Shown piece by piece: positions 58,758 to 63,283 of a stretch of DNA of 64,000 bases (positions within the stretch are counted from its first letter, which is position 1; every line of letters begins with the position of its first letter). Made by a program: the position numbers and the translations under genes. The stretch is from Halorussus sp. MSC15.2. Its GTDB lineage: Archaea; Halobacteriota; Halobacteria; Halobacteriales; Haladaptataceae. The notes under the pieces are model-generated. The model saw only the letters and a program-made list of their open reading frames with translations, did no database searches and was not told the origin of the DNA. Where the stretch lies: positions 310,001 through 374,000 of the forward strand of contig NZ_VSLZ01000002.1 of assembly GCF_010747475.1 (NCBI RefSeq), read 5' to 3'.

Positions 58758-58832
58758 GCTCCGTTGGTGTAGTCCGGCCAATCATCTTGCCCTCTCACGG
58801 CAAGGACCAGGGTTCAAATCCCTGACGGAGCA
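58758..58832 (+). tRNA. tRNA-Glu (anticodon CTC)
   Basis: A 75-base cloverleaf: acceptor GCTCCGT (58758-58764) pairs with ACGGAGC (58825-58831), discriminator A at 58832, anticodon stem TTGCC/GGCAA around loop CTCTCAC (anticodon CTC, reads GAG), T-loop ggttcaaatcc. The gene does not encode CCA. Its 3' half is the left boundary of a duplicated att-like sequence. Confidence 0.96.
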
Positions 58833-58871
58833 CTCCCTTCTTTCCGTCGTCACCCGATTTTGAGCTGTGGC
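58791..58871 (+). repeat. Direct repeat (attL-like) spanning the 3' half of tRNA-Glu
   Basis: The sequence from cctctcacggcaagg through the tRNA end and on to ttttgagctgtggc recurs at 63209-63283. Differences are two substitutions in the tRNA part, one in the flank, and a 6-base indel (ctcccttcttt versus tcctt). This is the boundary sequence expected of an integrated tRNA-targeting element. Confidence 0.75.
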
Positions 58872-59580: not shown

Positions 59581-61650
59581 GTGGTTGAAAAGTCAAATCC
59601 CGATAGTTCAGTTAGAAGACGAGACGTTCTAAAAACGGCGGCTACGACAGGCGCAGCGGCGTTTGGTTTCTCAGGTCAAGCCATCGCGTCTGACACTAAC
59701 CCCGAAGACGTGACCGCCTACCGGATGCAGGACCCGGCTACCGAGACCGGCAACCGAACGGTCCGGATTCAAACGAAGCAAAGTGCCGACTATCGCTTCG
59801 GTGTGACCGGCCTGCTTTCGGCCACTGACGCACCGACCGACGCCGTTGACGCCGGAAAGGCGTCGGCGACCCTTGAGCGTGGTGTTCACGAATTCCAGTT
59901 CTCCGGAGAGTTTACCGAGTTTGAACTCAACGGAGAAGCGAAGGTTACCGTCAACGGCGAGCCGTTCGACGTCGCGGCGTTCCCCCACAATACCCTAAAG
60001 ATTATTCCGAGTGGAAAGGTCGAGTTCGACGTGTCCGCCAGCGGTGGGCTGGAGGTTACCGGCGGTTCTGTAGAGCGTCCCTCAACGCGACGCGCTACGG
60101 GATACGCCAGTGGAAAAGTCACCGTCGCCTACGAAGGTGAACTAACGTATTTCGATATCGACGGCGACGCGGAGCTGACCAAGAACGGCACTTCCGTCAC
60201 GAGCGAGACAGTGCTACCGTCGACTCAACCTCACGTCGCTCACATCGAGACGACTCGTGGCAGCCACGAGTTCGACCTCGTCGTCGGCGACGACGCGTCT
60301 GTCACCGATTCGGTCACGGGTACTACCGCCGAAGGTGGTACCGTCAGCGGGCGCGCAGTGAACAAGCCCACACAAGTTAGCTACTCCGGTCAGACCACAC
60401 AGTTCCAACGTGACGACGGGGCAAAAATGGTATTCGATGACCCCTCGAATAAGGTCAAACTCCACGCCCCGACTGACGACAGTGCGGAGTTCACGCCACG
60501 AGCGACGGAAGGTATCGCCTATGAAAGCGAAGTCAGGGAAGCCCCGACGGTCACAGTGCCTGCCGGAGAGATGCGCCAGCTAAAGTACTTCGGAGACATT
60601 TTGGGTGGTGACATCGGGTCGCTCCGACTGTCACTGTCCCACGACGAATACCCGGCCGCGGCAGACTCCGCGCTTCTGCAACTCTCTGCGGAAGTACAGC
60701 GTCACAGCGCCTTCTCGGAGCTGACCACAAATGCCGCACAAGACGGCCGCGTCCGGTACGACGTCGGCGGTATTTCCGGGGGACGGATTCGCCCCTCCGA
60801 TTCCGGGAAAGACCTGACCTTCGCGTCACACGCATTGACCGACCTCGAACGAGGAACCAAGGGTAACCTAGTCCTCTCCGTGACGAATGACGGGAGTGTT
60901 GAGCAGGCAGAGAACACCCTTAAATGGGAAAATGATCGTGGAACGATACAAAAGATGGAGGTCAGGGAACTCCAGCGTGGCGCAAGCACGTCTGCGACCG
61001 GAAGTTCCTTCGAGACTGACGAACACAACTTCAATATCCCGAAGCAACCACGGCGAGCCGAAACCCAAGGGTGGGTTCCCGACCCGAGCGATTGGCTCGA
61101 CCCTCTATGGGACGGGCTGGACGCTCTGGCAGATAGTTTCGGTGTTGCGGCTGATTTGCTCAAGAGCGGAATTCAGAACGCTATCGACAACGTCCAGTCA
61201 CTAACGAAGGAGGATATTATCCTCAAATCCGGCGAGATAGTTATTGATAACCTCCGAGGAGCTGCCCAAATGGCATGGAGTCTGATTGATGAACTCTCGA
61301 ATTCGGTGACGGAGAGGAGACTTGGTAAGGTCCTGATGGGACTCAACATCGTCGGGTCCTTCGGTGTCGCGGCGTTCGTCGGCACAGACGTGTTCGGGGC
61401 ACTGGACAGAGGTGACCACGACTGTGCTGCATGTATCGCAGCAGTTAAAATAGCGTTTGAAGTGATGTGTGGCCTCGTCGGGAAAGGAGTGTGTGCCGCT
61501 GTCGGTGCGTTCACTGCACTCGTCGGTGGAGCGGCCTGTCAAATTGTTGTTGAGGCCGCTTGTGCGTACGCCACATTGGCGCTCCCGGACGCACAGAAGA
61601 TCTGTAGTGGAGATGCCGTCGTGCTAGACGACCCGGTTTGTACTCCATAA
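59581..61650 (+). CDS. Tat-exported protein with C-terminal halocin C8-like domain
   Basis: A 689-residue protein. GTG at 59581 starts MVEKSNPDSSVRRRDVLKTAATTGA, a Tat signal (RRR, cleavage near residue 37). Residues ~100-290 hold three degenerate beta-rich repeats (EFTEFELNGEAKVTVNGE, ELTYFDIDGDAELTKNGT, QTTQFQRDDGAKMVFDD). Residues ~500-600 are helical (WLDPLWDGLDALADSFGVAADLLKSGIQNAI). The last ~75 residues have eight cysteines, C615, C618, C630, C638, C653, C661, C675 and C687; C-x7-C in CQIVVEAAC and the ICSGDAV segment match the spacing and residues of halocin C8. Halocin C8 precursors are usually near 283 residues, so this is more than twice as long. An AT-rich TATA region ends ~28 bases upstream. 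Confidence 0.85.
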   Translation: MVEKSNPDSSVRRRDVLKTAATTGAAAFGFSGQAIASDTNPEDVTAYRMQDPATETGNRTVRIQTKQSADYRFGVTGLLSATDAPTDAVDAGKASATLERGVHEFQFSGEFTEFELNGEAKVTVNGEPFDVAAFPHNTLKIIPSGKVEFDVSASGGLEVTGGSVERPSTRRATGYASGKVTVAYEGELTYFDIDGDAELTKNGTSVTSETVLPSTQPHVAHIETTRGSHEFDLVVGDDASVTDSVTGTTAEGGTVSGRAVNKPTQVSYSGQTTQFQRDDGAKMVFDDPSNKVKLHAPTDDSAEFTPRATEGIAYESEVREAPTVTVPAGEMRQLKYFGDILGGDIGSLRLSLSHDEYPAAADSALLQLSAEVQRHSAFSELTTNAAQDGRVRYDVGGISGGRIRPSDSGKDLTFASHALTDLERGTKGNLVLSVTNDGSVEQAENTLKWENDRGTIQKMEVRELQRGASTSATGSSFETDEHNFNIPKQPRRAETQGWVPDPSDWLDPLWDGLDALADSFGVAADLLKSGIQNAIDNVQSLTKEDIILKSGEIVIDNLRGAAQMAWSLIDELSNSVTERRLGKVLMGLNIVGSFGVAAFVGTDVFGALDRGDHDCAACIAAVKIAFEVMCGLVGKGVCAAVGAFTALVGGAACQIVVEAACAYATLALPDAQKICSGDAVVLDDPVCTP

Positions 61651-61687: not shown

Positions 61688-62917
61688 ATGGAGAACAGAC
61701 TACAGACATGGCGGCGCACGTTGGCTGGAGTAGCCTTAGCTAACGCACTCCCGCTTATCGGAATCGTTCTATTTGACTGGGGTCTCGAACACCTCTTGGT
61801 AGTCTACTGGATCGAGATCACAACCAGTGGTCTCCGACGGACGCTGGAGGCAACGTTCGCGGGGAAGCGCGGCGCTGTAGAGGACTGGGCAGCCGCTGAT
61901 TCACGATGGGGATGGCGCTCACCGTTCCGCTCGCTCCGGGAGAAGCGTGGCGGATTCCAACTCCACGGGGCACTGCCGCCGACGTACCCACGGTCGTTCC
62001 CACGCGTGTTCGACCTTGGACGAGTAATCCTCGGTCTCTCACTCTTCAGCGGTGCTGGACTCTGGCTTGCAACCGCCGGGAGCGGCGTGTTCGTCGAGAG
62101 TCTCCTCGTCGCGGGCGCGACGACGCTCGCCCGCGAAGGGACAACACTCGCGGACCACATCCGCTCGCGTGACTACCACGAACTCGTCCCACAATCGATC
62201 CTTACTCCGCGATTAATCCTCGGGGTCGTTGCGCTCGCAGTAATCGTCGTCTGGGGCGTCGCGCTCGGACCATCACCGACCGAAAGCACAGGGGTCCTCT
62301 TCACGCTCGTCTACCTCGCTCGCGTCGGGTTCGACGTGTACAGCGTGGTCGGGCAGAGCGAACGGTTCAATCCTCTCAACCCGAGCGAGGCCAACTTCGA
62401 GGCCGCAGATAACGATCAGTGGGAACCGGTCGTCGCCCCCGAAGGGGACCCGACGGACGTATTCCACACGAACCGCCGAGCGGTGTGGATTAGCGCGGTC
62501 GTCGACGGACTCCTCGGAATGCTGAACCCCCGACGCTTCGCCGCGGCGGCCGTCACCGCCTTCCTCGGGTACGTTGTCGCCGGGACGACGGAGGCAGTCG
62601 TCGGTGCGAGCGCGGTCGTGATAGTGATCGTCGTGTACACGCTCGTGGAGAGAGACCTCCAATGGGGCCATGTGGAGTATCGGGTGTACGAGGACGTCGT
62701 CGTCTGTTACGACTGTCTGCTGGACGAACCGCAGTGGCGCGTCGAACGCGGATGGATCACGGATGTGACGGACCGGTCCGGACTGCTCGGACGACTTTTG
62801 GATGTCTCTTCGGTCTCGCTGGAACAGCGTAGCGACGGTAGTACTCGTACACTCCGGTACGTTAGCACTGCCGACTCACCGGTCTCGGAACTCGGTCGAC
62901 GATCCTCCAAGGTCTAA
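61688..62917 (+). CDS. Multi-pass membrane protein (DUF6498-like), candidate immunity partner
   Basis: A 409-residue protein. Residues 15-40 (ANALPLIGIVLFDWGLEHLLVVYWIEITTSGL) are typical of the DUF6498 fold; four or more further helices follow (FDLGRVILGLSLFSGAGLWLATAGSG, LILGVVALAVIVVWGVALG, FLGYVVAGTTEAVVGASAVVIVIVVYTL). The C-terminal 80 residues (YRVYEDVVVCYDCLLDEPQWRVERGWITDV) resemble a PH-type domain. It begins 37 bases after the halocin-like gene in the same direction. Immunity or export is inferred from position only. Confidence 0.7.
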   Translation: MENRLQTWRRTLAGVALANALPLIGIVLFDWGLEHLLVVYWIEITTSGLRRTLEATFAGKRGAVEDWAAADSRWGWRSPFRSLREKRGGFQLHGALPPTYPRSFPRVFDLGRVILGLSLFSGAGLWLATAGSGVFVESLLVAGATTLAREGTTLADHIRSRDYHELVPQSILTPRLILGVVALAVIVVWGVALGPSPTESTGVLFTLVYLARVGFDVYSVVGQSERFNPLNPSEANFEAADNDQWEPVVAPEGDPTDVFHTNRRAVWISAVVDGLLGMLNPRRFAAAAVTAFLGYVVAGTTEAVVGASAVVIVIVVYTLVERDLQWGHVEYRVYEDVVVCYDCLLDEPQWRVERGWITDVTDRSGLLGRLLDVSSVSLEQRSDGSTRTLRYVSTADSPVSELGRRSSKV

Positions 62918-63208
62918 AATCATGAATATTTTGACTAGGGTGTGGGTATCGACTGAAACAGCGTAACGGTGTTTCAGATTGAGTATCGCATTGATTCCGA
63001 TGAATTGTCTCGTGGACGGTTTACTCTAAAGAAAATCAACTCACTATCGTCTCTCTGCAGAGAGATTCAGCGAGTCCAAATTGCCTAGATGGCAATGAAC
63101 AGGTGTTTTATAAGCATCCACAACGAATTCCAGTTCGTCACCAGTTCATACTGAGGGATTCGGGAGAGTTGCGTAGAAGCGTCGGTTGAGTGTGGCGAGT
63201 CGGATTGG
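62918..63208. other. Islet right-end non-coding region
   Basis: No gene is seen. Short imperfect repeats and AT-rich patches are present; it leads to the truncated tRNA-Glu copy. Confidence 0.4.
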
Positions 63209-63283
63209 CCTCTCACGGCAAGGAGCAGGGTTCGAATCCCTGACGGAGCATCCTTCCGTCGTCACCCAATTTTGAGCTGTGGC
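63209..63283 (+). repeat. Direct repeat (attR-like): truncated tRNA-Glu 3' end
   Basis: Bases 63209-63250 are the last ~42 bases of tRNA-Glu (anticodon loop through acggagca) without the acceptor 5' half, D arm or promoter, so this is not a functional tRNA. The same flank (tccgtcgtcacccaattttgagctgtggc) follows, as after the intact gene. Confidence 0.8.

Follow-up and report, generated by a model that had tools for sequence, protein, structure and literature searches.

The long precursor and its relatives

The window is a stretch of 64,000 nucleotides from Halorussus sp. MSC15.2 (contig NZ_VSLZ01000002.1, positions 310,001 to 374,000), and positions given alone refer to its forward strand. 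It encodes a long halocin C8-type precursor of 689 amino acids at 59581..61650 (+). The open reading frame (ORF) is intact, begins with GTG, and its coordinates include the stop codon. The protein presents, in this order, a twin-arginine (Tat) signal, beta modules, a HalI-like domain, a helical segment of ~115 amino acids, and a C8 domain. The novelty is this architecture, with an immunity-type domain retained in the middle of the protein. A gene for a DUF6498 membrane protein follows, and both genes lie in an insert at a tRNA-Glu gene.

The Tat signal region covers residues ~1-38 (59581..59694, +). It was judged by its motif, VRRRDVLK, and the arginine pair is kept in 8 of the 8 aligned members. 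An earlier, sequence-only reading of the window had described a 689-residue Tat-type ORF with a C-terminal eight-cysteine domain. The coordinates, the Tat-type N-terminus and the eight cysteines are all borne out.

A search of 99 related genomes returned three full-length homologues with 31-34% identity. Searches with TIGR04449 showed additional C8-domain proteins of ~670-720 amino acids among the usual ones of 250-390. A profile-guided scan found long genes in Natrinema gari, Halomicrobium katesii, Halorussus amylolyticus, Haloferax larsenii, Halorussus ruber, Actinarchaeum halophilum, and Natrinema salsiterrestre. They are present as well in genomes G008, G120, G129, and G279. With the window gene included, there are 12 long precursor genes, in at least seven haloarchaeal genera. 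The locus search with the window protein as sole query gave no relatives, but an alignment query did find them. No relative was seen in viral contigs. Among the plasmid records, three gave matches, all limited to the N-terminal beta modules.

The same genome also holds an ordinary-length C8-domain protein (L027; G000:C4:191504-191707, minus strand), which scores above the TIGR04449 cut-off. Its frame of 217 amino acids shows no twin-arginine signal, so the gene is perhaps broken or mis-started.

The C-terminal C8 domain and its cysteine pairs

The last ~75 residues (615-689; 61423..61647, +) contain eight cysteines, at positions 615, 618, 630, 638, 653, 661, 675, and 687. Their spacing is 2-11-7-14-7-13-11, compared with 2-7-3-7-13-7-8-8-5 in the ten-cysteine HalC8. 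Two full-length homologues of the same genus pass TIGR04449 (29.7 bits in L003 and 27.6 in L004; cut-off 24). The profile comparison is decisive. A profile of 23 ordinary-length C8 proteins, with the window protein excluded, matches the latter with 25 bits at residues 614-676. In profile-profile comparison (hhalign), it reaches P = 1.1e-8 against the C-terminus of the long family and P = 5.2e-6 against the window protein on its own. As a control, 60 column shuffles scored 18 or less; the observed score was 59. By these comparisons, the last ~75 residues are a member of the halocin C8 domain family, as the sequence-only reading had proposed. The reading would have been refuted by the lack of a family match together with cysteines inside a larger enzymatic fold, which is not what was observed. 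Besides the family match, the PDB fold search with the precursor model gave no match at E <= 0.001, the C-terminus of this model being weak. Likewise, a PDB sequence search with the long family returned nothing meaningful. The structure model places helices at 613-644 and 648-675 with low confidence.

We studied the joint loss of cysteines in 42 C8 domains, mutually less than 60% identical, drawn from the C8 domains of 64 proteins. The cysteines C4 and C7 were lost together 13 times and singly 0 times (phi = 1.00; Fisher P 4e-11). C3 and C8 were lost together 11 times, again never singly (phi = 1.00; P 2e-10). The same occurs with C1 and C10, lost as a pair twice (phi = 1.00; P 0.001). These P values ignore kinship and consequently overstate the case. 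The paired loss indicates that the bridges are under selection. The simplest reading suggests a nested disulfide ladder of 1-10, 3-8, and 4-7, with 2-9 and 5-6 by elimination, which would form a helical hairpin. We found no paper giving the disulfide pattern of HalC8 in the open-licence literature. The ladder offers a testable disulfide map for the whole halocin C8 family.

The window protein does not have the ten cysteines of the mature HalC8 peptide. It lacks C3 and C8, which are missing in every aligned long protein. The same pair is also missing in four ordinary-length proteins (L054, L055, L090, and L135). The absence of C3 and C8 is thus a variation inside the family and not a sign of non-membership, and it suggests several separate loss events. 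The long form would retain four of the five bridges deduced for HalC8.

The sequence-only reading had also pointed to a segment resembling Cys-Gly-Asp-Ala-Val. This detail does not hold. In the C8-domain alignment, the cysteine of CGDAV (C8) is absent from the window protein, and C675, followed by SGDAV, aligns as C9. We rejected the resemblance as non-homologous.

The immunity-type domain, the upstream modules and the insert

In ordinary precursors, the domain that precedes the C8 peptide is Hac8_like_N (PF22862). It scores 164 bits in L031, a precursor of 283 amino acids. The C-terminal end of L031 presumably corresponds to the HalC8 peptide.

We compared a profile of the HalI region, made from 18 ordinary precursors, with the long family. 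It matches at residues ~357-458 of the window protein (60649..60954, +) with P = 4.1e-6 (hhalign). When the window protein is removed from the family, the match remains (P = 1.6e-5). The reversed profile and the column shuffles gave no match to the long family. One of the 60 shuffles scored 132.5 over 17 columns, which we judged a program artefact; otherwise, the best shuffle scored 19.0 versus 47.8 observed. Taken one by one, most long members have their best match to the profile in the same region, although it is weak in each case. The N. gari homologue matches PF22862 with 29.3 bits in the genome search (cut-off 27) and with 25.4 bits by direct scan. At the level of the family, then, a Hac8_like_N/HalI-type domain precedes the C8 domain. 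A second group of ordinary precursors, with a different N-terminal half, gave no profile match to the long family.

By this evidence, a HalI/Hac8_like_N-like domain sits mid-protein. The model shows a helix-loop-helix at its start (358-385). The title of Mei et al. 2008, as cited in PMC11509114, reports a helix-loop-helix at the HalI N-terminus as essential for immunity. The sequence-only reading had assumed that beta repeats and a helical domain replaced the immunity part, and that a different processing route or mode of action was likely. Both modules are present upstream of the C8 domain. However, the N. gari match and the profile comparison mean that the immunity-type part was not replaced. 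Since this part is kept, there is no reason to deduce another mode of action.

Matches to Hac8_like_N also occur in two short frames, G011:C2:186731-187006 (154 amino acids) and G001:C3:229648-229911 (188 amino acids). The second adjoins a C8 precursor gene. These frames are possibly stand-alone immunity proteins.

The beta modules (residues ~59-353; 59755..60639, +) have an all-beta model, with predicted local distance difference test (pLDDT) values mostly of 60-90 in this block. Their repeats match other secreted haloarchaeal proteins, with E values down to 1e-25, which suggests that the modules bind a surface or a polysaccharide. Several of the other exoproteins are beta-helix-like and one is Kelch-like, the parts being named by reading the sequence. 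One of them (L136:2220-6119) is a protein of 1300 amino acids with an apparent subtilase-like part, beta repeats, and then a GH26-like part, as read by eye.

The helical segment (residues ~498-614; 61072..61422, +) has no Pfam or NCBIfam match and is modelled as helices with low confidence. Between it and the HalI-like domain lies TQG (residues 495-497; 61063..61071, +), a candidate boundary between the pro-part and the C-terminal part. TQG is conserved in 6 of 7 long proteins, and the seventh has STQQ. Similarly, about 9 of 23 ordinary precursors have [ST]xQ 5-13 residues ahead of their first C8 cysteine. The pattern suggests an end of the pro-part at this point and a released part of maybe ~190 amino acids. 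The sequence-only reading held that processing sites cannot be read. This is strictly true, but the conserved TQG is a candidate.

The precursor is followed, after 37 bases, by a gene for a multi-spanning membrane protein of 409 amino acids (61688..62917, +), a putative immunity or export partner. It matches PF20108 (DUF6498) with 35.9 bits (cut-off 23.7). A homologue lies directly downstream in 10 of the 12 long loci: the window, H. amylolyticus, Hfx. larsenii, H. katesii, G120, N. gari, N. salsiterrestre, Actinarchaeum, G129, and G279. Two of these, H. katesii and G120, are Halomicrobium-type genomes. Conversely, the partner was not found beside about 40 ordinary-length C8 genes, most of them examined with flanks of 1.5 kb. 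Of 195 genomes, 91 have DUF6498 genes, mostly one to a few each, so the pairing is very unlikely to be due to chance.

The weak model of the partner (mean pLDDT 51.5) shows the tail as beta strands with a helix at the end, and this tail may be PH-like. A PDB sequence search with this tail gave nothing meaningful. Leaderless bacteriocin clusters contain PH-domain membrane proteins that take part in immunity and transport (PMC7332713, PMC11580447). By analogy with them, we propose the partner as an immunity protein; alternatively, it would act in export or release. Our literature search found no paper on DUF6498, and the partner gives a first functional lead for this family.

The left end of the insert is the tRNA-Glu (CTC) gene found by ARAGORN at 58758..58833 (+), the integration target. 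At the right end, a duplicate of the 3' part of this tRNA and its flank appears at 63180..63283 (+). The direct repeats are 82% identical over 71 nt and 94% over 33 nt, with a spacing of about 4.4 kb. The close relative G004, 92% identical over the left flank, shows the empty site. There, the tRNA is joined directly to what lies beyond the second repeat in the window, and the ~4.4 kb are absent. The G+C content of the insert is 56.5%, compared with 64.2% for the window. Its convincing genes are the precursor and the partner only, and inspection of its ORFs showed no integrase. Judging from these features, the two genes resemble a small unit acquired horizontally. As a natural two-gene insert, it could be moved as a whole.

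A second DUF6498-related gene lies just beyond the right end of the insert, from 63624 past the end of the window (whole gene L023:11624-12931). Its last ~60 residues are unlike those of other partners, which suggests a frameshift. Beyond the window, 3' of this gene, there is an ORF of 173 amino acids (L023:13486-14007) with a few cysteines, including a CxxC near its end.

Proposed function and known systems

We consider it probable, though well short of certain, that the locus encodes a self-immune, modular proprotein of the halocin C8 type, whose chain includes an immunity-type domain and to which a membrane partner is dedicated. The precursor would be exported by the Tat route. Its HalI-like domain would be its own immunity domain, and the C-terminus a disulfide-rich helical toxin domain, inactive while in the precursor. 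The beta modules would serve to anchor the precursor to a surface or polysaccharide, or to aim it there. Outside the cell, proteolysis would free the toxin part, probably near TQG. The product may be a helix-plus-C8 fragment of about 190 amino acids or the ~75-residue C8 domain alone. The DUF6498 protein would give extra immunity to the producer or help with release. The two-gene insert with its empty site fits a self-sufficient cassette for production plus immunity.

Several results weigh against this proposal. The window protein on its own reaches 12.8 bits with TIGR04449, below the cut-off of 24, and has no Pfam match. Routine annotation would therefore probably label it hypothetical. The HalI profile gives it 6.9 bits. 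The C-terminal 200 residues are modelled at pLDDT below 50. TQG is a sequence pattern, a candidate cleavage site. The partner was not found at the long loci of G008 and H. ruber (G015). Only 2 of 9 partners have weak bPH_2 (PF03703) matches (best E 0.001), and the sole full-length match is below the cut-off. Finally, the antimicrobial activity itself is deduced from sequence.

A bolder version of this proposal, which we put forward tentatively and do not expect to hold in full, is that archaea have a division of labour like that of colicins. Beta modules for surface binding and built-in immunity would accompany a two-part toxin of ~190 amino acids (helical segment and C8), cut at TQG. The two-gene cassette would then include a new DUF6498/PH-like class of immunity protein.

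In a narrower case that overlaps the self-immune proprotein and that we regard as rather unlikely, the HalI-like region is a non-functional spacer and immunity comes wholly from the DUF6498 partner. The strong divergence of this region (about 6% aligned identity to ordinary precursors) and the link of the partner to the long form only agree with it. However, the region is still alignable in all members, the helix-loop-helix start is retained in the model, and two long members have no partner.

It is less probable still that the precursor is a surface protein or adhesin without antimicrobial function, whose C8-like domain serves as a disulfide-stabilised membrane anchor or assembly tail. Here the beta modules would do the work. 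They are present in exoproteins without any halocin part, and the large size and the Tat-type signal of the protein also fit. Nevertheless, an adhesin has no reason to retain a HalI-like domain. The C8 cysteine pairs evolve like those of ordinary halocins, and an insert of two genes, one of them for a membrane partner, is what toxin-immunity cargo typically looks like.

A secreted decoy seems improbable to us. Its HalI-like part would bind and neutralise the halocins of competitors or the ordinary halocin of the producer, whose genome does encode an ordinary-length C8 protein. However, such a role requires neither a whole C8 domain with its bridges preserved nor a distinct membrane protein as partner. 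Finally, a chance resemblance of an unrelated cysteine-rich helical tail agrees with the sub-threshold score of the window protein alone, but it is already contradicted by the profile match (P 1e-8), the homologues above the curated cut-off, and the matching cysteine-pair logic, and we give it almost no credence.

The long family offers a modular form of halocin C8, probably the best characterised halocin according to PMC11509114, in at least seven genera and with a candidate dedicated partner gene. Among the closest known systems is ProC8 (283 amino acids), which is exported by Tat and yields HalI and the 76-residue peptide HalC8 (PMC11509114). Both it and the self-immune proprotein that we propose have a Tat-type signal and a domain of Hac8_like_N/HalI type, followed at the C-terminus by a C8 domain rich in disulfides. 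In contrast, the window protein is 2.4 times longer than ProC8, and it departs from the typical form of about 280 amino acids, in which HalI directly precedes the C8 peptide. It has ~300 amino acids of beta modules before the HalI-like domain and the ~115-residue helical segment after it. It also presents eight cysteines, without the C3-C8 pair, and a separate DUF6498 membrane partner.

The protease that frees halocin C8 is described as unidentified, and for other precursors of haloarchaea, activation by extracellular serine proteases is reported (PMC12893001). HalH4 and HapP (HFX_0892) of Haloferax mediterranei involve a secreted precursor, and extracellular proteolytic activation is presumably common to the window precursor. 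By their description, they differ in having no C8 domain (PMC12893001). On the partner side, ORF E and ORF F of enterocin DD14 (PMC7332713) are likewise multi-spanning membrane proteins with a PH or PH-like part, adjoining a toxin gene. They are bacterial, and the weak bPH_2 matches only hint at their homology to the DUF6498 partner. Finally, the haloarchaeal exoproteins L136-L143 share a homologous beta repeat with the precursor. In them, however, the repeats are joined to apparent protease, GH26, beta-helix or Kelch-like parts, as read by eye, and not to a halocin.
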